Shown one piece after another: positions 6,279-63,743 of a stretch of DNA of 63,743 nt. Origin of the DNA: Alphaproteobacteria bacterium (GTDB lineage: Bacteria > Pseudomonadota > Alphaproteobacteria > Rs-D84); assembly GCA_009783145.1 (NCBI GenBank), contig WRHR01000006.1:1-63743 (forward strand). The letters run 5' to 3'. Numbering within the stretch: position 1 is the stretch's first letter; each line of letters begins with the position of its first letter. Below the pieces are notes generated by a model, which saw only the letters and a list, made by a program, of their open reading frames with translations, made no database searches and was not told the DNA's origin. The position numbers and the translations under genes are program-made.

Positions 6279-6299
6279 TTTTGTTTTCCTTTTTTATTT

Positions 6300-6416
6300 A
6301 CTGGATTGCTTCGCTGCGCTCGCAATGACAATTCGGTGTTTGTTTCAGACTGTATACCCCATTTTGCCCGTAATTGTCATTGCGAGGAGCCTGAAGGGCG
6401 ACGCGGCAATCCAGTC
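6300..6416. repeat. TTGTCATTGCGAG-type palindromic repeat pair
   Basis: Two inverted copies face each other: CTGGATTGCTTCG...CGCAATGACA and TGTCATTGCGAGG...GGCAATCCAG. The same family occurs at 25147-25241, 30650-30755 and 54389-54467. Confidence 0.85.
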
Positions 6417-9164: not shown

Positions 9165-9190
9165 AAAACGCGGGCAAGCCCGCGTTTTTT
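9165..9190 (+). terminator. intrinsic terminator after the gcrA operon
   Basis: An ACGCGGG/CCCGCGT hairpin with an AA-containing loop, flanked by A and T runs, directly after the stop codon. Confidence 0.9.
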
Positions 9191-9325
9191 AATGACTAAT
9201 TACTAATGACTAATGTTTAATGTTTAATGATTAATGTATGACATATACGATGTCCTTTATAAAGGACAAGTATGAATTTTATTCACTGGTATTAGTAATT
9301 AGTAATTAGTCATTGGTCATTAAAA
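9191..9325. repeat. heptamer-arm hairpin element with GTCCTTTATAAAGGAC core
   Basis: The left arm (9191-9240) is tandem 7-mers of the TAATGAC/TAATGTT type. The right arm (9290-9325) is their complement (ATTAGTA/GTCATT type). The core palindrome GTCCTTTATAAAGGAC is at 9252-9267. The right arm supplies the last codons and stop of lpxB (MTND). Confidence 0.85.
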
Positions 9326-19504: not shown

Positions 19505-19580
19505 CCCATTAATGACTAATGACAAATGACTAATTGGGCGCTTATATTGGTCATTCGTAATTAGTCATTAGTCATTAAAA
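19505..19580. repeat. heptamer-arm hairpin element without core palindrome
   Basis: TAATGAC-type units on the left and their complement ATTAGTC on the right flank a short spacer (TTGGGCGCTTATATTGG). Confidence 0.75.
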
Positions 19581-27664: not shown

Positions 27665-28582
27665 ATGCCAGCAAAATCAATTAAAAAATCCGCCTCCGCC
27701 AAGGCTCTGGCGGACAAGCCGACAAAAGCCTCTATCAAAAAAAAGCCTGTAAATGTACCAAAACCCGCCCCTGCCAAGGTATTGGCGGACGAAGTTTCAG
27801 CGAAGCGCGCCAGCGCGAAGGCTGATAAAAAACCGGAATTGAACGTCGTTTGCATGGCGTGGTTGCGCGAAGACGGCACCAAGAAATTTAGCGAAGAATA
27901 CGTAAACCGCCTTTATCGCATGGTGCAAAAGAACCTTACTCTGCCGCATCGGTTCGTGTGTTTTACCGACTATCCGGACAAGTTCGACGACGGAATTGAA
28001 ACATTTCCTGTGCCAAAAGTGAGGTTTCCAAAGGGATGCCCCGAACGCGGATGGAAGAAACTTGGCCTGCTTCTGTCGGGCAAGGTGGAAGATTTGAAAG
28101 GGACCGCCCTCTTCCTGGACTTGGACACCGTAATTGTCGACAATATTGATGATTTGTTCAAGGTGCCGGGAAAATTCCTTATCGCGCGCGACAAAGCGAA
28201 CAATGACAAGGAAGGCAATTCATCCGTGGTGCGCTTTGAAATCGGAAAACATCAAGACGTATTGGATTATTTCGAAAAGAATTTTGACCGCGTGCGGCAC
28301 GAAGTCCGGCGCGAGCAGCAATTCTTATCCAATGAAATGCAGAAAAAGGGTATTTTTCAGTTCTGGCCGAATGAAAACTGGTGCGCAAGCTTTAAATATA
28401 AAAGCCTGCTGCGGTTTCCGCTGAATTGGTTCATTGCCCCGAAAATACCGAAAGGCGCGAAAGTCGTAATCTTTCACGGAAGACCGAATAACGAGCAAGC
28501 CATGAAAGGCTATACGGCGAAGTTCGGGCTACGCCATGTTAAGCCCACAAAATGGATAAGGAAATACTGGATTGATGCGTAG
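27665..28582 (+). CDS. glycosyltransferase-like protein with repeat-derived N-terminus
   Basis: From the ATG at 27665 (after AAGGAAGGA) the protein has 305 residues. The first ~60 are Ala/Lys-rich and built from palindromic repeats (ASAKALADKP, APAKVLADEV). The rest resembles a GT-A glycosyltransferase: NVVCMAWLREDGTKKFS at the start, then GTALFLDLDTVIVDNIDDLF, a DxD-like metal site (about residues 160-165), and a C-terminal IFHGRPNNEQAMKGY. A capsule/LPS or glycan role is possible but not shown. The next gene starts inside its stop region. Confidence 0.75.
   Translation: MPAKSIKKSASAKALADKPTKASIKKKPVNVPKPAPAKVLADEVSAKRASAKADKKPELNVVCMAWLREDGTKKFSEEYVNRLYRMVQKNLTLPHRFVCFTDYPDKFDDGIETFPVPKVRFPKGCPERGWKKLGLLLSGKVEDLKGTALFLDLDTVIVDNIDDLFKVPGKFLIARDKANNDKEGNSSVVRFEIGKHQDVLDYFEKNFDRVRHEVRREQQFLSNEMQKKGIFQFWPNENWCASFKYKSLLRFPLNWFIAPKIPKGAKVVIFHGRPNNEQAMKGYTAKFGLRHVKPTKWIRKYWIDA
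27695..27714. repeat. in-frame palindrome in the glycosyltransferase-like gene
   Basis: TCCGCC/GGCGGA arms around AAGGCTCT, read as SAKALADK. A degenerate second copy lies at about 27774-27792. Confidence 0.8.
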
Positions 28583-29714
28583 ATTCATTCTTTATTCTTT
28601 ATGCTTTATTCTTTGCGGCGGCGGGGCATTTGCCGCCTCTACCGGACAGAATGCGCGCGATTTCATGTCGCCGGTGGCTTTCAATACGATGGAGCCCTTT
28701 ATGAATCAACAGATGGCGAACGGGCTGCGGCCGGATGCCGCGAACCGTGCGTTCAATCCTTCGTCGGCATTCTCCCGCAATGCGGTGGGGTCGGGAAATA
28801 CGCCTATATCCGGGCTTGTGCGCGAAAAGTCAGTAAATACCGTTTTACCGGCCGAACCGGTGTCAGACGGCCAGGCGGCACAAGGGGTTGTATTGCGCAA
28901 AACGCCAAAGGGTACTCCCGATGCGCCTTACTCTTATACTCAATTTACGCCTGGCAATCTGGTGGCTCCGCAATTGACGGCGCGAAGCGGCCTGCCACCC
29001 GTAGCCCAGAATGGGCAAAGGGTGGTCGTGCCAAGAAGCAGCGGCGGAGCAAACGCAGCGCGCAGCGCTACGACTGCGGGCAGCGGTGCGGCAGCGGTCG
29101 CGGCAGGGCAACGCAGAGTCGTACCGCGCGCAACCCGCGAAGATTCGGCTTCGCAGGCGTCAAATCGCGGCCAGGCTGCCCCAGCCATGACAACCGTGCC
29201 TATGAATTCGGTTTCCGCATCGCAATGCCTGGCGGATTACAAGGCTTGCATGAACGGATATTGCCAGCGCAAAAACACTCTGTACAACCGATGCTCGTGC
29301 AGCCCGCAATTGGCGCGTATCGATGCCGAGTTCAAGCCCGCCATCGAAGAAATTCTGCGCCAGATCGTGATATTCAAAAACGGGGGAAAACCGGGCGAGC
29401 TGATGTCAAATGATGAATTGAACGAGTTTTGGGAAGATACTTTCGCCGAATTCACAGGCGGTAATGATATGATGTCGCTGACCGATGCGCTGAATATAGA
29501 CTGGGCGGACAGCGAAAATAGGATGCAAGGGGAGAAGTCGTTCGTGATGGGACACGAGTATTGCGTGCAGCATCTGCGCGGCTGCTTTTATATGGCGTCG
29601 AATCTGCGCGATGCATACCGCAGCGAGATTGCGCGAGATTGCGCGACTTATGAAAAGCACCTTGGCAATATCAAGCTCGCCGGCGAATCGGTCTTGGCGC
29701 AGATTGGGGAATGA
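28575..29714 (+). CDS. exported hypothetical protein (379 aa)
   Basis: Unknown family. The signal peptide RRFILYSLCFILCGGGAFAA is encoded by four ATTCTTT-type heptamers (28587-28614). A Pro/Ala/Ser/Arg-rich middle carries another palindromic repeat (28995-29025), followed by a folded C-terminal region from about residue 215 with Cys clusters (CLADYKACMNGYCQRKNTLYNRCSC) and later MGHEYCVQHLRGCFY. The Cys pattern suggests a disulfide-rich periplasmic domain. The ATG lies within the last codons of the upstream gene. Confidence 0.8.
   Translation: MRRFILYSLCFILCGGGAFAASTGQNARDFMSPVAFNTMEPFMNQQMANGLRPDAANRAFNPSSAFSRNAVGSGNTPISGLVREKSVNTVLPAEPVSDGQAAQGVVLRKTPKGTPDAPYSYTQFTPGNLVAPQLTARSGLPPVAQNGQRVVVPRSSGGANAARSATTAGSGAAAVAAGQRRVVPRATREDSASQASNRGQAAPAMTTVPMNSVSASQCLADYKACMNGYCQRKNTLYNRCSCSPQLARIDAEFKPAIEEILRQIVIFKNGGKPGELMSNDELNEFWEDTFAEFTGGNDMMSLTDALNIDWADSENRMQGEKSFVMGHEYCVQHLRGCFYMASNLRDAYRSEIARDCATYEKHLGNIKLAGESVLAQIGE
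28587..28614. repeat. heptamer array encoding a signal peptide core
   Basis: Four units ATTCTTT, ATTCTTT, ATGCTTT, ATTCTTT encode the hydrophobic core of the following exported protein. Confidence 0.85.
28995..29025. repeat. in-frame palindrome in an exported protein gene
   Basis: CCACCC...GGGTGG arms with a variant centre, read as LPPVAQNGQRVV. Confidence 0.7.
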
Positions 29715-30649: not shown

Positions 30650-30755
30650 GGCGGGCCGAGCTTCGCTCGCAATGACAATAAAGAGTTTATTGGGCCACAA
30701 AGCTTAAAACAAACACCGAATTGTCATTGCGAGCCCGCAGGGCGAAGCAATCCAG
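30650..30755. repeat. TTGTCATTGCGAG-type palindromic repeat pair
   Basis: CTTCGCTCGCAATGACA and TTGTCATTGCGAGCC...GCAATCCAG face each other between the spanin-like genes and rho. Confidence 0.85.
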
Positions 30756-33882: not shown

Positions 33883-33947
33883 TTTATCTTCCTATTAATA
33901 TTTGCTTAATTATACAAAATTTCCGCCTCCCGCGCAAGGGCAAAAGT

Positions 33948-34075
33948 CGCTAGTCGTTAGTAGCTAGTCGCTAGTCGCTAGTAGGTATGTGCCGATATGA
34001 ACATTGTCCATTATAAAGGACAATGCTATTTGTTGCGCCGACCCGCTAGCGACTAACGACTAGCTACTAGCGACT
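33948..34075. repeat. heptamer-arm hairpin element with GTCC...GGAC core
   Basis: Left arm of AGTCGCT-type 7-mers (33948-33985), core GTCCATTATAAAGGAC at 34006-34021, tail TTGTTGCGCCGACC, right arm of TAGCGAC-type 7-mers (34044-34075) complementary to the left. Confidence 0.9.
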
Positions 34076-34096
34076 ATTCGTGCTATAATATAGGCT

Positions 34097-35638
34097 ATGA
34101 AAACTCCACTTGTACTTTGCATATTGGACGGCGTCGGGATCAGCGCCGACAAAAAGCATAATGCGGTGGCAACCGCAAAGATGCCTTTCTATCAAAGGCT
34201 GCTGCGCGAATATCCGCACACGCGGTTAACTGCGCACGGACCGACGGTCGGCCTGCTGCCCGGAGCTATGGGAAACTCCGAAGTCGGGCATATCACGATC
34301 GGCAGCGGCCGCGTGGTGAATCAATTCCAGCGCAGATTTCAGATTGAAAACGAATCGGGGCGAATTGCCGCCAATCCGCGCCTGGTTAAATTCATCCGCG
34401 ACGTGAAAAAAGATGGCGGGATAGTGCACCTTTTGGGCTTGACGTCCGACATAGGCGTTCATTCGGATATTAACGAAGCGATTACGGTCGCGCGAATCGT
34501 TATGGCAGCGGGCCCGCGAATCTGTTTTCATTTTGTCGCTGATGGGCGCGACACTCCGCAAAAGGCCGCGGAAAAATATATACTGAAATTAAACCGCGCG
34601 TTTGCCAAAGAAATAAAAAGCGGGCAGCTTTTCTTCGGCACTTTGTCCGGACGGTATTACACGATGGACAGAAATCAGAATTGGGACAGGACGCAGCGCT
34701 CTTTTGACGCAATCGCGCTGGGACGCGCTGAATTTTCCGCGCCGGATATCACATCAGCATTGCGCGCCGCATACGCGCGCGGCGAAACTGATGAGTTTAT
34801 AAAGCCGACAATAATAAAAAACGACCTGTCCCCCGTAGCCTTGGCGAAGGGGGACGGATTGCTATTCACTAATTACCGCTCGGACCGCGCAAGGCAAATT
34901 CTGCAAGCCTTTTCCACCTGCTCCGTAATAAGCAATGTAAAGCGCCCTGCGAATTACGTTTCGCCGCATGTGCTCAGCTTTTCCGAGTATGGCGGAGAAA
35001 CGGACAACTGCGTCCCCGCCCTGCTGGCGGATATCCCGATTAAAAACACTCTGGGCGATGTGCTGGCCGCGCACGGTCTGCGCCAGCTGCGAATTTCCGA
35101 GACGGAAAAATATACTCATGCCACCTATTACTTCGACGGCGAGCGGACCATAGATTATCCGGGCGAAGAAAAGATTTTAATCCCCAGCGCGGACGTTTCC
35201 ACATTCGATTTAAAGCCCGAGATGTCGGCGGCCGAGATTACGGATAATGTCATGCGAAGGCTGGCGAAATACGATGTCATAATAATAAACTATCCCAACG
35301 GCGATATGATAGGGCATACGGGAATAATGTCCGCGGCAATAAAAGCAATGGAAACGCTGGACGCGCAGCTGGCGCGGCTGGTGCCCGCGGTTCTGAAGCT
35401 GGGCGGGACTATGCTTATAACGGCGGATCACGGAAGCGTTGAGAAAATGTGGGATGAAAAGCTGAATGTGGCCTGGACCGCGCATACCACGAATAAAGTT
35501 CCGTTTATTGTTGTTAGCGGCCTGCCACCCGTAGCCTTGGCGAAGGGTGGAGGTCTTTCCGACATCGCGCCGACGATACTGAAAATTCTGGGCTTAAAAC
35601 AGCCGAAAGAAATGACGGGGAAAAGTCTTATAAATTAA
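34097..35638 (+). CDS. gpmI: 2,3-bisphosphoglycerate-independent phosphoglycerate mutase
   Basis: Interconverts 3- and 2-phosphoglycerate in glycolysis. The 513 residues show the N-terminal metal site LCILDGVG, the phospho-Ser motif MGNSEVGH (about residues 58-65), ADGRDTPQ, and the C-terminal TADHGSVEKM with SDIAPTIL. Two in-frame palindromes (34829-34854 and 35525-35550) add LSPVALAKGDG and LPPVALAKGGG at loop positions. TATAAT at 34084-34089 ends 7 nt before the ATG and there is no Shine-Dalgarno, suggesting a leaderless message. Confidence 0.96.
   Translation: MKTPLVLCILDGVGISADKKHNAVATAKMPFYQRLLREYPHTRLTAHGPTVGLLPGAMGNSEVGHITIGSGRVVNQFQRRFQIENESGRIAANPRLVKFIRDVKKDGGIVHLLGLTSDIGVHSDINEAITVARIVMAAGPRICFHFVADGRDTPQKAAEKYILKLNRAFAKEIKSGQLFFGTLSGRYYTMDRNQNWDRTQRSFDAIALGRAEFSAPDITSALRAAYARGETDEFIKPTIIKNDLSPVALAKGDGLLFTNYRSDRARQILQAFSTCSVISNVKRPANYVSPHVLSFSEYGGETDNCVPALLADIPIKNTLGDVLAAHGLRQLRISETEKYTHATYYFDGERTIDYPGEEKILIPSADVSTFDLKPEMSAAEITDNVMRRLAKYDVIIINYPNGDMIGHTGIMSAAIKAMETLDAQLARLVPAVLKLGGTMLITADHGSVEKMWDEKLNVAWTAHTTNKVPFIVVSGLPPVALAKGGGLSDIAPTILKILGLKQPKEMTGKSLIN
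34829..34854. repeat. in-frame palindrome in gpmI, copy 1
   Basis: TCCCCC/GGGGGA arms around GCCTTGGC, read as SPVALAKGD at about residues 244-253. Confidence 0.9.
35525..35550. repeat. in-frame palindrome in gpmI, copy 2
   Basis: CCACCC/GGGTGG arms around GCCTTGGC, read as PPVALAKGG at about residues 477-485, just before SDIAPT. Confidence 0.9.
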
Positions 35639-35753
35639 CAATTAACAGATAACAATTAACAGTTATAGAGATAAATTAACCGTTGTCCATTATAAAGGAC
35701 AATGGCTTACATTGCTCTTCAATTGTTAATTGTTATCTGTTAATTGTTAATTT
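35636..35753. repeat. heptamer-arm hairpin element with GTCC...GGAC core
   Basis: Left arm TAACAAT/TAACAGA-type 7-mers, core GTCCATTATAAAGGAC at 35685-35700, right arm of complementary TTGTTAA/TCTGTTA-type 7-mers. It lies between gpmI and tadA. Confidence 0.9.
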
Positions 35754-36215: not shown

Positions 36216-36770
36216 ATGAATTCCAATTTGCAAATTATTTCGGGGAAATGGCGCGGCAAGAAATTGCACCTTCCCCCCAACGCCCGCCCGACGCAGAACA
36301 AAGCGCGCATAGCCTTATTTAATATGCTTGATGGTATTCTAGCGACTAGCGACTGCCGACTAGCGACTATTTGGGATGCGTTCGCGGGCAGCGGAGCGTT
36401 CGGAATCGAATTTTTATCGCGCGGCGCGCAAAAAGCGATTTTCACAGACACCGACGCAGAATCGATAAAAACAATTAAAAAGAATCTGGCGGGTTTGGAT
36501 GCGGCGCGCGCAGCCGTCGCACTGACGGACGCCACAGGCGCGATAAAAAAATACGGCGCGGATGCGGATATAATCTTCATCGATCCGCCTTATGCGCATC
36601 CTGAACTTGGCGCGCGATTCATAGAAAAACTGAGCGCCGCCGCAAAACCCGGCGCGATTATAGTTTGGGAAATGGAAAAAGATTTCGCCCCTGCCCCACT
36701 GCCGGAAAACTTGAAAATTTTGAAAGATAAAACTTACGGAAGAGCAAGGTTTTTAATAATTAGCAATTAG
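36216..36770 (+). CDS. rsmD: 16S rRNA (guanine966-N2)-methyltransferase
   Basis: Methylates G966 of 16S rRNA in the 30S subunit. 184 residues: N-terminal QIISGKWRGKKL and RPTQNKARIALFNML, SAM motif AFAGSGAFGIEFLSRGA, catalytic DPPY (IIFIDPPYAHPEL, about 125-137). Between residues 42 and 51 lies ATSDCRLATI, encoded by four TAGCGAC-type heptamers (36340-36367), a segment absent from typical RsmD. Confidence 0.93.
   Translation: MNSNLQIISGKWRGKKLHLPPNARPTQNKARIALFNMLDGILATSDCRLATIWDAFAGSGAFGIEFLSRGAQKAIFTDTDAESIKTIKKNLAGLDAARAAVALTDATGAIKKYGADADIIFIDPPYAHPELGARFIEKLSAAAKPGAIIVWEMEKDFAPAPLPENLKILKDKTYGRARFLIISN
36340..36367. repeat. four heptamers (TAGCGAC) inside rsmD
   Basis: Units TAGCGAC, TAGCGAC, TGCCGAC, TAGCGAC are in frame with the gene. 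The same 7-mer forms the hairpin arms at 34044-34075 and lies after the nifJ stop at 45885-45910. Confidence 0.9.
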
Positions 36771-36880
36771 CAATTATCAATTAGCGGTCTTGGTGGCGTT
36801 AATAGCATTGTCCAATATATTGGACATTTCATATCGTTGCATTTTTAATTGCTAATCGCTAATTGATAATTGCTAATTAA
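36757..36880. repeat. heptamer-arm hairpin element with GTCCAATATATTGGAC core
   Basis: CAATTAG-type 7-mers on the left and complementary AATTGCTA-type units on the right flank a perfect but sequence-different core palindrome (36810-36825) followed by CGTTGCA. Confidence 0.9.
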
Positions 36881-36900: not shown

Positions 36901-37716
36901 TTACTGACCGCCGAAAAGCGAGCCCGACAATACCGGCAATGCGCCCATCATAGAGTTCAGCGGGCTTCCGCCGCCTTGCTGCAATACCGAGCCGACCTGT
37001 CCCATCGTCGCGCCCGCGTTTTGTTTTTGTCCCAGCCCCCCAACCGTCTGCGTCAACATGGCGCCCCACAGCTCGCGCTGTTTCGCGCTCAGCACCGCCG
37101 GCGCGCAGGTCAGCGATTTTTCTTTCAGCCGCGCCATCATCGCGACCTCATTCGGCATAAAGTCCGCGTCTTCAAAACCGATTCCGCCAAGCATTTGATA
37201 AATATCCGACATCGCCGCGCGGTTCTTATCGTTATTCGGCCCGGCCGGGTCTTTCAATCTATAGCCCTTGCTGGGATACGGATAATTCGCGTAAATCTGG
37301 TAGGAGTCCATTGTTCCGTCGAATACCTGATAGCAGGGCTCTATCCCTTCCGCAAGAATCCGCACGCTGTCCGCATAAGTCCTGCCGACGCATTTGGGCC
37401 TGGCGCCCAGATTCGGCATAGCTCCGCCCGCTTTGGCCCATTCCTGCATCAATGTCTTCACGAAAGCGACTTCCCCGTCCGTCGGCTCGCACTCCGCGCT
37501 TAACGCCGCTTGCGCCTGAGACATCGCCATCACGTTCCCGACCAAGCCCAACGCCGTTGGAATCAGGCTGTTCCCGGACATCAGTCCGGCCATGCCTTTT
37601 TCCTGCTGCTGGGTCGACACGGGAGCGGCCTTTGTAATCTGCACGGCCGCATGCGCCACGCTGGTGGCACAAAGAGCAAAGAGCAAAGAGCAAAGAGCAA
37701 AAGTGGATTTTTTCAT
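36901..37716 (-). CDS. exported hypothetical protein (271 aa)
   Basis: Family unknown. The signal peptide STFALCSLLFALCATSVAHA is encoded by four AAAGAGC heptamers (37671-37698). The mature part has four or more Cys (SAECEPTDGEV, ARPKCVGRTY, IEPCYQVFDG, LTCAPAVL), low-complexity Gln/Gly regions at both ends and an MGALPVLSGSLFGGQ end. Probably periplasmic or surface-associated. It stands alone between rsmD and lptC. Confidence 0.78.
   Translation of the reverse strand: MKKSTFALCSLLFALCATSVAHAAVQITKAAPVSTQQQEKGMAGLMSGNSLIPTALGLVGNVMAMSQAQAALSAECEPTDGEVAFVKTLMQEWAKAGGAMPNLGARPKCVGRTYADSVRILAEGIEPCYQVFDGTMDSYQIYANYPYPSKGYRLKDPAGPNNDKNRAAMSDIYQMLGGIGFEDADFMPNEVAMMARLKEKSLTCAPAVLSAKQRELWGAMLTQTVGGLGQKQNAGATMGQVGSVLQQGGGSPLNSMMGALPVLSGSLFGGQ
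37671..37698. repeat. heptamer array encoding a signal peptide core
   Basis: Four exact AAAGAGC units (minus-strand GCTCTTT) code for the Leu/Ala/Cys-rich hydrophobic core of the protein at 36901-37716. Confidence 0.9.
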
Positions 37717-37943: not shown

Positions 37944-38423
37944 ATGGATCTTACCAACCGCAATTTTCTGATTTCCAGCAACCACAGGCGCATCCAGCGC
38001 TTGTGGCAGTTCGTATTCACCGGATGGGGCCTGGTCCTGATTGCCGCGCTTATCGCGGGCTCCATAATCACCAAGAACCTCAGTTGGATACCCATTTCCG
38101 GAATCAGCATTTCGGACATAACGCAGAACCAGTTCAAGATGACCAACCCCGCATTTTCCGGCCTGGACAAGGACGGGAATCCTTTCGTCATAAAGGCGGA
38201 TATCGCGCGCCAGGAATACGACGCCCCGGATTTCGTGTTCTTGGACAACATCCGCGCAAAAATATCGCGCATTGACAAGGGCCGCAAAATCACGGACAAT
38301 ATAACCGCGAAAACGGGAAAATATAACAAGGTCAAAAAAGATATAACCCTGGTTGGGAACGTCCGCGTGGATTCGTCCAACGGGGATAAACTACTGACGG
38401 ACCAGTTGGTGATAAAATTATGA
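37944..38423 (+). CDS. lptC: LPS export protein LptC
   Basis: Inner-membrane component of the Lpt bridge that passes LPS to the outer membrane. One N-terminal membrane helix (about residues 24-44, FVFTGWGLVLIAALIAGSII) is followed by the periplasmic beta-jellyroll (NPAFSGLDKDGNPFVIKADIARQ, DNITAKTGKYNKVKKDITLVGNV) in 159 residues. lptB follows after a heptamer hairpin, and no lptA lies between them, unlike the common lptC-lptA-lptB order. A -10 box ends 8 nt before the ATG. Confidence 0.88.
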   Translation: MDLTNRNFLISSNHRRIQRLWQFVFTGWGLVLIAALIAGSIITKNLSWIPISGISISDITQNQFKMTNPAFSGLDKDGNPFVIKADIARQEYDAPDFVFLDNIRAKISRIDKGRKITDNITAKTGKYNKVKKDITLVGNVRVDSSNGDKLLTDQLVIKL

Positions 38424-38545
38424 TGGATGAGGGATGACGGATGATGGATGATGTAAAGTGATATAAGAATTATTTCTGAAAATTAAAAGAAAAAACTCTT
38501 ATTGTCCTTACATCATCCCTCATCAATCATCCGTCATCCATTGCG
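38424..38545. repeat. heptamer-arm hairpin element between lptC and lptB
   Basis: GATGGAT/GACGGAT-type 7-mers on the left (38424-38455) and complementary CATCC units on the right (38511-38543). The centre keeps only ATTGTCC of the usual core. Confidence 0.85.
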
Positions 38546-41203: not shown

Positions 41204-41298
41204 AATTAGCAATGCGCAAATAGCAATTAGCAAATGTGGCCGCGCGGCTACGCCGCGCACATTATTTGCTCTTTGCTCTTTGCTATTTGCTAATTTTT
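41204..41298. repeat. heptamer-arm hairpin element before ssb
   Basis: AATTAGC/AAATAGC-type 7-mers on the left and complementary TTTGCTC/TTTGCTA units on the right flank a GC-rich hairpin (GTGGCCGCGCGG...CCGCGCAC). The core is not the usual GTCC type. Confidence 0.8.
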
Positions 41299-45300: not shown

Positions 45301-45415
45301 ATATGTGCAGGTGCAGGTAAAAAGTGAATGTGGATTAGAGAATATTAATAAGATTGTCCTTTATAAAGGACAATGCATATTGTTGCACTGACTTACCTGC
45401 ACTTGCACGAATTAC
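45301..45415. repeat. hexamer-arm hairpin element with GTCCTTTATAAAGGAC core
   Basis: GTGCAG units left, core palindrome at 45356-45371, TTGTTGCACTGACT, then complementary CTGCACTTGCAC right. The flanking GGATTAGAGAATAT is shared with 15361-15376. Confidence 0.9.
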
Positions 45416-45846
45416 TGTCCCAGTCCCGCCGGCGAGAACCTGCCGATGTTATTTATCAGCTCTTCAAACGCATTCAGCTCTATGGCGGCGGGAATTTCGG
45501 TTTCGCCGCTTGCGATGCTTATATCCGGCAAGTCGGCGTCGCGCAGGATTTTCGTTCTCAAAACCGCGCCGCCGTTCACCCATGCCAGCAATACGGTCTT
45601 GTTGTCATATTTCAGAGGAAGCGGGCCGCGATAGTTTTCATCCGCGCCATAGAAAATCCAAACTTTGTCGCCGTTGATGGTCTTGGCCTGAGGACTGCCG
45701 AACTTCTCTTCCAGCTGAGCGGTGGTTTTTATGTTTGACACCTGCGCATCCAAATCTTCGGGGAAAACATACCCGCGATGCTTGGTCTGGAAAGTGCAGG
45801 CACAGAGCATAGAGCATAGAGCAAAGAGCATAGATATTTTCTTCAT
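45412..45846 (-). CDS. SmpA/BamE-like outer-membrane lipoprotein
   Basis: 144 residues. A lipoprotein signal peptide (ISMLFALCSMLCACTF, lipobox Cys near residue 16) encoded by four AGAGCAT-type heptamers (45804-45831) is followed by a domain with the BamE-like pattern LEEKFGSPQAKTINGDKVWIFYG. BamE helps the BAM complex insert outer-membrane proteins; whether this is the true BamE or a paralogue cannot be settled here. Confidence 0.75.
   Translation of the reverse strand: MKKISMLFALCSMLCACTFQTKHRGYVFPEDLDAQVSNIKTTAQLEEKFGSPQAKTINGDKVWIFYGADENYRGPLPLKYDNKTVLLAWVNGGAVLRTKILRDADLPDISIASGETEIPAAIELNAFEELINNIGRFSPAGLGQ
45804..45831. repeat. heptamer array encoding a lipoprotein signal peptide core
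   Basis: AGAGCAT, AGAGCAT, AGAGCAA, AGAGCAT on the plus strand code in reverse for LFALCSMLCA. Confidence 0.9.
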
Positions 45847-45911
45847 AACGAATATTCTACATTTTATTTTAAGTCTTGTCTAGCGACTAACGACTAGCTA
45901 CTAGCGACTAA

Positions 45912-53290: not shown

Positions 53291-54376
53291 TCACGGCTCA
53301 TTGAATATGCGGGCGGGGTCTACGGCCTTTGTTCCGCGGCGGAGCTCCAGATACATTTCCGCGCGCTCGTCCGGCATGCGGCCCACAGGCTCGCCTGCCA
53401 ATACCTCCTGACCCACCAGCACGTCTGAACTTCCCAATCCCGTCAAGACCGAGTAATAAGAATTCTTGTGCGACATTATCAGCACCCGCCCGTTCTTGCG
53501 GAAGTCATCCGCGAATTCCACACGCCCGTCCGCCGGCGCAGACACCAAAGCATTGCTGCGCGTCTTTATCAGCCAGCCGTCCGACACCAGCCCCAGCGGC
53601 GACTTTTCGCCAAAGCGGCGCAGCATCAGCCCGCTTACCGGCGCCTTCAATTTGCGCCAGCTGAATGATTCGTCCGCGGAAACCCGCGTCCCGGCCAGCC
53701 CCGCCGTCAGCTCTGACAAGTCTTTTGCCCTTGCCGACAGGTCGCGCAATTTCTTTTGCAATTCGTACTGCTGGGATTTCAATTTTTCATTCTGCGCCGA
53801 CCTGGTCCGCATCAGCTTATCCAAATGGCTTTTGTCTTCCGCGTATTTTTGCGCGGTTTTATCCAGCTTTGCTTGTTGGGCCTTGCGCTCTTCAAGAATC
53901 TTTTCCAGCTCTTCGATTTTCTTTAGTGCGGATTTCATTTCCGCATCGAACTGGCCCGAAACGCCGGTCAGCAGCGCCGAAGTCAGAATATATTCGCGCG
54001 TGTCGGCCGCAGAAAAGCTGGGGTTCCCGGATATGATTGCCAGGCCCGCGGCCGCGTCGGCAAGTCGTCCCTTGTTCGCGCGGATCGAAGACAGCAGTTC
54101 GTCGCGCCGTTTATCCAAGTCCGAAATTTTATCCTTTATCGCGCCGCGCTTGGCTTCCAGCTTGCTAAGCTTATCCGCCGCCGACACAAGTTGCTTTTGA
54201 GTGCTCGCCACCTCGCGATCTGACGTCTTTACCTGCTGCTCTATCTGTTTATTCTGCTGTTCGGTTTGTTTTATCTGAGACTGAATCTTCGCCAAATCGC
54301 CGGACGCGGCGAAGCAGGTAGCAGGTAGCAGGTAGCAGGTAGCAGTTATTGAAAAAATAAAAAATAATTTCTTCAT
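53291..54376 (-). CDS. envC: EnvC-like murein hydrolase activator
   Basis: A periplasmic coiled-coil protein that activates amidases at the division septum. From 54376: signal peptide KLFFIFSITATCYLLPATCF, its core encoded by five AGCAGGT-type heptamers; a long coiled coil (about 25-225); and a C-terminal LytM-like domain (RRFGEKSPLGLVSDGWLIKT ... YYSVLTGLG, EMYLELRRG). The HxxxD and HxH zinc ligands are missing, as in EnvC, so it should be non-catalytic. ctpA follows. Confidence 0.88.
   Translation of the reverse strand: MKKLFFIFSITATCYLLPATCFAASGDLAKIQSQIKQTEQQNKQIEQQVKTSDREVASTQKQLVSAADKLSKLEAKRGAIKDKISDLDKRRDELLSSIRANKGRLADAAAGLAIISGNPSFSAADTREYILTSALLTGVSGQFDAEMKSALKKIEELEKILEERKAQQAKLDKTAQKYAEDKSHLDKLMRTRSAQNEKLKSQQYELQKKLRDLSARAKDLSELTAGLAGTRVSADESFSWRKLKAPVSGLMLRRFGEKSPLGLVSDGWLIKTRSNALVSAPADGRVEFADDFRKNGRVLIMSHKNSYYSVLTGLGSSDVLVGQEVLAGEPVGRMPDERAEMYLELRRGTKAVDPARIFNEP
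54313..54347. repeat. heptamer array encoding the EnvC signal peptide core
   Basis: Four AGCAGGT units and one AGCAGTT; on the minus strand they read CYLLPATCYLLPA-like, a 7-residue repeat made from 7-base units. Confidence 0.9.
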
Positions 54377-54388
54377 ATTTTTATTTGC

Positions 54389-54467
54389 TGGATTGCTTCG
54401 CCCGTTGGGCTCGCAATGACAAATCGGCATAAATTGTCATTGCGAGCCCGAAGGGCGCGGCAATCCA
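54389..54467. repeat. TTGTCATTGCGAG-type palindromic repeat pair
   Basis: CTGGATTGCTTCGCCC...CGCAATGACA faces TTGTCATTGCGAGCC...GCAATCCAGC between envC and tyrS. Confidence 0.9.
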
Positions 54468-54470
54468 GCA

Positions 54471-62518: not shown

Positions 62519-62572
<54 letters not shown>

Positions 62573-62710: not shown

Positions 62711-63743
62711 ATGAAACTAACTTACATAACGCGGACAGTGACGTTGTGCTTGGCGATACCGCTGATGACATCCGCTGCTATGGCGGCGACCGTCACGATT
62801 GACGGCGTTACGCTCAGCACCTATGCTTACGGCAACGGCCCGGCGGATACTGTCGGCGCCATTACCGGAAACGGCGGCTGGCCTTTATCCGGTCTTGCGA
62901 GCGACCTGTTGTCCTCTAACGGCAACACGCTCAACTTCCTTAACGGCAATATGACCGGAAAAGAGATTTTTGGCGGATTTATGGAAGCCTCCGGTTCTAT
63001 TACCGGCAATATTACGGCCAGCAACAACACCGTGATCAAGGACAACAGCATCGGCGGAAACGTCTATGGCGGGTGGGCGGATGCTTACTTGACCGGCGGC
63101 ACCAATGCCACGGCCAATCAAAACAGCGTGACCCTGTCCGGCAATAGCGATTCGTATTATGTAAGCGGCGGATATGCTCAAAGCGAGGCCGACACCGCCA
63201 CAACCAACAGCAACATTGTCAACATTATCGAAAACAGCACAGTTGACACTGTTGTCGGCGGGCATGCTTACAGCGACTATGGCACAGCCATAGCCAGCAG
63301 CAACACCGTAAACATCACCGACGGCAGCACGATTACCAACGATGTTTATGGCGGGCATGCGAACAGCGATGATGGCAACTCCACGGCCAACAGCAACTCC
63401 GTGAGCATTGATGACAGCGCGGTTTCCGGCCGTGTTTTCGGCGGCTATGCCTATGTGTACTACGACGGCGATACCACGGCCAGTAACAACACCGTGAGCA
63501 TTAACGACAGCGCGATTTCCGCCCGTGTTCATGGCGGCTATGCCTATACGTACTACGATGGCAACGCCACGGCCAACAGCAATACTGTGAAAATTGACGG
63601 CGGCACGATTTCCGGTCGTGTTTACGGCGGGTATGCCTATGTGGACGAAGATGGCAACGCGACGGCCAGTAACAACAAGGTGAGCATTACCGACATCACG
63701 ACTTATAATAGTGTTTTCGGCGGCTATGCCTATGTGTACGGCG
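62711..63743 (+). CDS. exported repeat protein, autotransporter/adhesin-like (truncated by window end)
   Basis: The frame stays open from the ATG at 62711 to the window end (344 codons). A signal peptide (TVTLCLAIPLMTSAAMAA) is followed by tandem ~24-33-residue repeats of the type FGGYAYVYYDGDTTASNNTVSI then NDSAISARVHGGYA, rich in Asn, Ser, Gly and Thr. This is the composition of beta-helical passenger domains of surface autotransporters. GGAAGAAAAAA precedes the start. The AG tract and leader hairpin upstream suggest phase-variable expression. The C-terminal barrel, if any, lies outside. Confidence 0.85.
   Translation, partial: MKLTYITRTVTLCLAIPLMTSAAMAATVTIDGVTLSTYAYGNGPADTVGAITGNGGWPLSGLASDLLSSNGNTLNFLNGNMTGKEIFGGFMEASGSITGNITASNNTVIKDNSIGGNVYGGWADAYLTGGTNATANQNSVTLSGNSDSYYVSGGYAQSEADTATTNSNIVNIIENSTVDTVVGGHAYSDYGTAIASSNTVNITDGSTITNDVYGGHANSDDGNSTANSNSVSIDDSAVSGRVFGGYAYVYYDGDTTASNNTVSINDSAISARVHGGYAYTYYDGNATANSNTVKIDGGTISGRVYGGYAYVDEDGNATASNNKVSITDITTYNSVFGGYAYVYG

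Follow-up and report, generated by a model that had tools for sequence, protein, structure and literature searches.

Phase variation of HMW1 and HMW2 in Haemophilus influenzae is tied to 7-bp tandem repeats which lie upstream of the genes. The remaining systems are given here as described in excerpts of the cited sources. In Escherichia coli K1 the gene neuO is phase-variable through an AAGACTC repeat of 3 to 53 units, for which slippage has been shown (PMC13001214). TAACTGA repeats are found in Beggiatoaceae and cyanobacteria, where each genome uses a single unit sequence; they lie mostly ahead of a start codon and rarely in ORFs, and the excerpted text reports no signal-peptide role for them (PMC4679880). 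GGGAATC repeats in Xanthomonas and Nostoc are G-rich, quadruplex-forming and intergenic, and heptamer repeats are described as over-represented in bacteria without having been studied in detail (PMC4692102). Rickettsia palindromic elements (RPEs) form families of ~ 150 bp with a conserved peptide (PMC10969869, a MITE review). In the literature covered, which left most subscription journals outside its scope, we found no report of heptamer arrays serving as signal-peptide cores.

Here we describe such arrays in a window of 63,743 nucleotides, by which we mean the whole stretch of DNA analysed. The window is contig C6 of an alphaproteobacterial MAG (G000; 946,699 bp, 24 contigs).

Heptamer arrays in the signal peptides of the window

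The original prediction was that four exported proteins of the window have signal-peptide cores encoded by tandem 7-mers, and all four were confirmed by Tandem Repeats Finder (which supplied the copy numbers and percentages below) and by the sequences. In this list a mate is an inverted array with a matching unit.

28587-28614, plus strand: 7-mer array ATTCTTT, 4.0 copies, 90%; signal peptide of CDS 28575-29714; without a mate upstream
28575-29714, plus strand: CDS of an exported protein without Pfam match
36901-37716, minus strand: CDS of an exported protein without confident Pfam match
37670-37701, minus strand: 7-mer array, coding strand TTTGCTC, 4.6 copies, 100%; signal peptide of CDS 36901-37716; without a mate upstream
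45412-45846, minus strand: CDS encoding a small lipoprotein with an LCAC lipobox; Pfam and NCBIfam gave no match
45800-45834, minus strand: 7-mer array, coding strand TATGCTC/TTTGCTC/TGTGCTC, 5.0 copies, 89%; lipoprotein signal peptide
45880-45910, no strand: array of CTAGCGA units, on the upstream side of lipoprotein CDS 45412-45846
53291-54376, minus strand: CDS with EnvC-like coiled coil and Peptidase_M23 (PF01551, 4.7e-13); ATG at 54376 is the likely start
54313-54345, minus strand: 7-mer array AGCAGGT (coding strand ACCTGCT), 4.7 copies, 100%; signal-peptide core of the M23-peptidase protein; no upstream mate

The arrays at 28587, 37670, 45800 and 54313 encode, in that order, the N-terminal hydrophobic stretches MRRFILYSLCFILCGGGAFA, MKKSTFALCSLLFALCATSVAHA, MKKISMLFALCSMLCAC and MKKLFFIFSITATCYLLPATCFAASG, and the 7-residue cycle CYLLPAT had been read correctly. 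The CTAGCGA array is not a mate of the lipoprotein array because its unit differs. A "BamE-like" label was rejected for a lipoprotein with no Pfam or NCBIfam match.

The listed ORF of the EnvC-like gene extends to 54430, beyond the likely start, and this 5' extension consists of a second dispersed repeat (ATTGCGAGCCCGAAGGGCGCGGCAATCC-like), which is found at 54434-54470, 6291-6336 and 30716-30755 of the window and on other contigs, with many copies in G000 and in the related genomes G003, G011 and G023. The window also contains a perfect (AG)22 dinucleotide run at 62523-62566, unusual for G000, and a 93-bp repeat in four copies at 63371-63739, in an ORF which runs off the window end.

Abundance of period-7 arrays and enrichment in signal peptides

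All contigs of G000 were scanned. Exact period-7 runs with at least 14 matched bases numbered 94, every other period from 1 to 30 (multiples of 7 excluded) gave at most 5 runs, and three Markov shuffles gave no period-7 runs; tandem 7-mers are the sole abundant short tandem repeat of this genome. At a score of ≥ 9 there were 349 arrays with a sharp length mode of 30–33 bp, 4-unit arrays being the commonest class in signal peptides, genes and intergenic DNA alike, and several unit families have preferred start and end phases.

Gene starts and signal peptides were taken from a home-made simple gene caller (801 genes, 84% coding) and a home-made signal-peptide rule, and an array was counted if it lay within the first 75 nt of a signal-peptide-like gene. 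By this measure 28 of the 224 signal-peptide-like N-termini of G000 carry a period-7 array; similar arrays are thus present in other signal peptides of the genome, a point on which the original prediction had turned. The rule missed the window array at 54313, since the cleavage motif CFA lies outside it, and as true cases of this kind are missed the figure of 28 is a lower bound. The same regions of the same 224 genes contained 5, 2 and 1 arrays at periods 8, 6 and 9. Synonymous recoding of the same peptides produced a mean of 0.82 period-7 arrays (maximum 3, 200 rounds), and codon shuffling inside each signal peptide a mean of 0.025 (maximum 1, 200 sets). The five regions scoring as period-8 arrays also exceed a null of 0.025, and some of them may be drifted heptamers.

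By location, signal-peptide DNA (16.8 kb) contained 28 arrays, intergenic DNA 202 and the remaining coding DNA 91, which corresponds to densities of ~ 1.7, ~ 1.5 and ~ 0.13 per kb. The density in signal peptides is therefore ~ 13 times that of other coding DNA and about equal to that of intergenic DNA. Genes with such signal peptides include those for SurA-like, D-Ala-D-Ala carboxypeptidase, secretin and M23 peptidase proteins, which are housekeeping envelope genes; the label "ABC binding lipoprotein" was rejected for one protein, which is the secretin (PF00263). Cysteine makes up 12.5% of the hydrophobic cores of array-bearing signal peptides vs 2.8% of array-free ones, perhaps as a by-product of TGC-rich units.

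What the units encode

On the coding strand the signal-peptide units are mostly TTTGCTC, TATGCTC, TGTGCTC and TTTATTC; they are almost always stop-free and hydrophobic, and the resulting heptads include FALCSLL, SMLYALC, SVLCALC and FILYSLF. A cut-off for hydrophobicity (uncharged, stop-free heptad, KD ≥ 1.2) is passed by 8.1% of all 7-mers, by 22 of the 56 orientations of the 28 signal-peptide arrays (both strands counted) and by 19 of the 404 intergenic-array orientations, 266 of which contain a stop.

Internal stops are absent from all 91 arrays in other genes, whose mean KD is − 1.1 (5 of 91 above 1). They mostly encode hydrophilic heptads, such as ETRNAKR and QSIEHRA, many are inverted pairs, and by NCBIfam their hosts include MutL, UvrC, TopA, MurG, ThrS and FtsY. 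When intragenic arrays were compared with the G001 and G003 orthologues, 17 of 60 comparisons were clear insertions, including those in MutL and in the interior of UvrC, and in the remainder the array aligns, in whole or in part, with orthologous residues. The 696-aa UvrC ORF is probably too long at its upstream end, with the NCBIfam match beginning at about residue 193, and therefore only the second array pair (residues 514–556) was counted as inside UvrC. An (AACTGAT)n array at C8:5963-5994, encoding the peptide LSVISYQ, lies inside a 701-codon ORF of G000 and shares its unit with the TAACTGA repeats described from Beggiatoaceae and cyanobacteria.

Intergenic elements and inverted pairs

Among 125 pairs of neighbouring arrays at most 200 bp apart, 106 are inverted with a matching unit and 8 are direct. 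The window contains the following pairs, to which no strand applies:

9190-9322: inverted array pair TAATGAC ... ATTAGTA, intergenic
19510-19577: inverted array pair TAATGAC ... ATTAGTC with 11-bp spacer, intergenic
33945-34076: inverted array pair AGTCGCT ... CTAGCGA with core TTGTCCATTATAAAGGACAA, intergenic
35633-35752: inverted array pair AATTAAC ... AATTGTT, intergenic
36758-36878: inverted array pair AATTAGC ... TAATTGC with core TTGTCCAATATATTGGACA, intergenic
38420-38541: two mutually inverse arrays ATGATGG ... CATCATC (Tandem Repeats Finder)
41207-41291: two arrays, GAGCAAA-type ... TTTGCTC, between genes; the unit is common to several signal peptides

The element at 35633-35752 and one at C5:63951-64070 have identical arms, and their spacers are 90% identical over 50 bp. 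When all spacers of at least 25 bp were compared (a match covering ≥ 70% of spacer length), 20 of 66 matched another spacer, and none of the 10 spacers of signal-peptide type did. The signal-peptide pairs have no dispersed homologous interior and are not copies of whole mobile elements; therefore, intergenic insertions and signal-peptide arrays may differ in origin.

Intergenic lengths were compared between G000 and G001, a genome of the same genus, at 138 conserved gene pairs. The median excess in G000 was 116.5 bp where at least two arrays were present (20 sites), 76.5 bp with one array (14 sites) and 0 without arrays (104 sites), so the array-bearing intergenic regions have gained length relative to a genome lacking the arrays. 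Signal peptides have not changed in length, as the predicted cleavage position has a median of 20.5 with an array vs 20 without. Intergenic arrays are therefore insertion-like and signal-peptide arrays would replace the core in place, with promoter and start sequence remaining native.

A palindrome GTCC-W8-GGAC (TTGTCCATTATAATGGACAA) occurs in 33 copies in G000, for example at 33983-34045 and 36786-36845 of the window; 17 copies are flanked by arrays on both sides, with differing arm units, and none was found in those portions of G001 and G003 that were sampled. It looks like a MITE core or a protein site.

Of the 28 signal-peptide arrays of G000, 9 have a matching inverted mate no more than 150 bp upstream of the start, and none of the 28 has one downstream. 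The start codon is in the loop of these nine pairs, two of which have an exact TATAAT between mate and start codon, at − 15 and − 16. The other 19 arrays have no mate, and neither do the four signal-peptide arrays of the window. An array of any kind lies upstream of 34 of 196 array-free signal peptides.

In the pair at C2:28885-29018 the arms are complementary in register at 28 of 28 positions, including the rare unit GCTCATT (5 of the 142 units of its family), which keeps the coding arm free of a stop; the predicted fold has a 30-bp stem, − 53.2 kcal/mol and a z of − 9.5. Overall, arm mismatch is 4.8% within pairs vs 5.4% for the same unit family elsewhere, so inverted mates are not in general exact copies. 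As the arms of a pair are hardly more alike than arms of one unit family at other sites, co-copying of arms rests mainly on this one case.

Turnover between species

Orthologous signal peptides have different 7-mers, or none, at the same spot. The EnvC-like protein has ACCTGCT in G000 and TTCTTCC in G016; in G014 it has GTTGTTA, accompanied by an inverted mate, and the G001 orthologue is array-free. The secretin has TCTGTGC in G000, and its reciprocal-best orthologues have CTTTGGG in G001 and ATTTGCT, here with a mate, in G003. In SurA-like proteins we found TTTATTC (G000), CTTTATT (G003, with a mate), TGCCTTT (G013, with a mate), TTGTTAA-type (G014), CTTATGC (G044), TTTGCTC (G047) and ACTTTTT (G011). 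Including the D-Ala-D-Ala carboxypeptidase and two more, six proteins have differing 7-mers, and inverted mates of signal-peptide arrays occur in G003, G013, G014 and G047 as well as G000.

The secretin, the D-Ala-D-Ala carboxypeptidase and the SurA-like protein were sought in 30 chosen genomes. Of 83 loci tried, 80 were scored and 3 had no signal-peptide call; second fragments and paralogues (L231, L232, L261, L262 and L290) were left out. An array was present in 18 of 36 orthologous signal peptides from array-rich genomes and in 9 of 44 from array-poor ones, counts which include some arrays that are not hydrophobic cores, such as AAGAAAC in the charged N-terminus of G022 SurA and a T-rich run in G012 DacA. 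These differences imply that arrays arise or are replaced repeatedly. On sequence comparison, the variation in presence and unit among species is turnover and not demonstrated slippage. An assembly artefact is an unlikely origin of the arrays, because the same genes bear other-unit arrays in many separate genomes.

Distribution among relatives

The relatives compared are MAGs recorded as Alphaproteobacteria, Rickettsiales, Candidatus Enterousia and others; the array-bearing isolates may come from termite guts, as read from isolate prefixes. We counted the pattern ATTNNNN × 4 in 142 genomes of the family and 201 of the order, finding 229 in G000, 224 in G003 and 231 in G009. There were 10 in G001, which shares the genus of G000, 2 and 0 in G022 and G045, which share that of G009, and 0–5 in most genomes of a large genus (g10). 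Full scans gave 116 arrays at a score of ≥ 12 in 426 kb of G003, and three period-7 arrays in 389 kb of G001, two of them in signal peptides; one further signal-peptide array lies in the G001 carboxypeptidase gene. Since array-poor G001 has such arrays, they do not need a genome-wide burst. Arrays were present at 7 of 80 EnvC loci (1.31 Mb). In a phylum-wide sample of 398 genomes, the signal-peptide-type unit TGCTYTN matched four, namely G000 and three others, and no clear signal-peptide case was seen among four loci inspected from those three.

A reverse transcriptase was considered as the maker of the tracts and rejected, RVT_1 being present in array-poor G001 and absent from the moderately rich G011 and G014. 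A link to REP/RAYT systems was rejected likewise, as Y1_Tnp was not found in G000. The reverse transcriptase gene of G000 lies at C1:39297-40313 (L024), with a 100-codon partner upstream, and is conserved in G001 and G003; its RVT_1 protein presumably resembles the reverse transcriptases of diversity-generating retroelements, a guess from sequence.

Origin of the signal-peptide arrays

We consider it probable that 31-bp heptamer tracts from one genome-wide process recurrently replace signal-peptide cores, with selection acting as a filter, and that the intergenic elements are inserted. A process in this family would make or spread heptamer tracts of fixed length (~ 4.5 units, 31 bp), usually as a pair of inverted arms separated by a spacer. 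In intergenic DNA the complete elements, both arms with their spacer (~ 117 bp), would be inserted, some spacers being dispersed copies. In most coding DNA selection would remove the tracts unless a stop-free, mostly hydrophilic stretch is encoded. The core of a Sec signal peptide would be the exception, as ~ 10 hydrophobic residues of nearly any sequence suffice, and a T-rich heptamer tract of 31 bp, with all three frames read, would supply about that number. Hairpin arms may thus be retained in signal peptides, a hydrophobic tract of 31 bp being an adequate core. Hydrophobic tracts in the coding orientation would replace these cores repeatedly, with a different 7-mer per lineage and constant peptide length, and in about a third of cases the inverted mate is found upstream, beyond the start codon.

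The earlier suggestion that signal peptides tolerate or recruit the repeats which build the intergenic hairpins gains from the array density, the unit bias, the paired arms in 9 of 28 cases and the differing 7-mers of orthologues. That one process makes both kinds of array, with selection as filter, and the direction of change, are what we infer. A more specific version is rather unlikely, namely that a dedicated DNA-copying activity lays heptamer tracts of set length in paired inverted arms at many sites, coding DNA included, with a unit that depends on the site; signal peptides would then be a selectable read-out, and export signals would be continually re-invented.

The original prediction also proposed contingency loci, in which replication slippage changes the unit number, each 7-bp step shifts the frame and export becomes phase-variable. 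Seven is not a multiple of 3, the arrays lie in the 5' coding region as does the AAGACTC repeat of neuO in E. coli K1 (PMC13001214, excerpt), and both presence and unit differ among species. However, the arrays are short, with four units commonest against the 3–53 of neuO, many are impure, several unit families have preferred start and end phases, and the hosts are housekeeping envelope genes. Slippage alone leaves the inverted mates and the fixed length unexplained, and no clear frame-shifted (OFF) array was found among 41 other hydrophobic-compatible array/orientations in this one MAG. Contingency loci are unlikely, and phase variation of the G000 arrays, possible in principle, is unsupported by the sequences.

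It is slightly less likely again that the two arms flank promoter, RBS and start codon as a regulatory hairpin or invertible segment, with control through RNA or cruciform structure or through inversion. The mates which lie upstream in 9 of 28 cases and never downstream, the two TATAAT motifs and the 30-bp stem with its z of − 9.5 would fit this, but 19 arrays have no mate, the signal-peptide spacers have nothing in common, similar arms also occur where no start codon is present, and inversion would carry the start codon along with the promoter.

Insertion at gene starts of a palindromic mobile element of the RPE or MITE kind, which would supply the signal-peptide core, is distinctly improbable. 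In its favour are the intergenic length gain of ~ 117 bp, the GTCC-W8-GGAC palindrome with arrays on both sides of 17 of its 33 copies, the 20 of 66 spacers with a homologue elsewhere, and the in-frame copies in MutL and inside UvrC. A classical mobile element leaves the unrelated spacers at signal peptides (0 of 10) unexplained; moreover, these peptides are not lengthened (median 20.5 vs 20) and a Y1 transposase was not found in G000. Chance or amino-acid-level convergence, by which hydrophobic peptides of few codons appear periodic, is extremely improbable and was rejected by the recoding and shuffling tests, since signal peptides do draw on few residues and codons but 28 arrays were observed vs 0.82 and 0.025, with 0–5 at other periods.

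Comparison with known systems

Replacement of signal-peptide cores by 31-bp tracts, our preferred reading, would give heptamer repeats, which dominate among the short repeats of this clade, a clear and recurrent coding consequence; they are present in some species and nearly absent from a congener. It would also offer a natural experiment on the minimal sequence information that a signal peptide requires, and the contrast between array-rich G000 and array-poor G001 makes a hunt for the responsible factor feasible.

The HMW1/HMW2 repeats share the 7-bp tandem units with G000 but are not signal-peptide cores. As described in the excerpts cited above, neuO resembles G000 in having tandem heptanucleotide units in the 5' part of its coding sequence, where 7-bp steps shift the frame; however, it is a single gene, whereas G000 has ~ 30 genes, mostly with 4–5 units, a hydrophobic signal-peptide core and inverted mates. 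The same sources describe the TAACTGA repeats as 7-mer direct repeats of few units, between genes and near start codons, and the GGGAATC repeats as heptamers, mostly of four units in Xanthomonas and with some inverted pairs, in all of which they are like those of G000. RPEs, on the excerpted account, are palindromic repeats found between genes and in frame in unrelated genes of a small alphaproteobacterial genome, as in G000; unlike RPEs, the arms in G000 are tandem 7-mers with dozens of units (75 in our scan) and the signal-peptide cases are length-neutral. Here the 7-mer core is apparently one arm of a genome-spread repeat which has been built anew from another 7-mer in each species.
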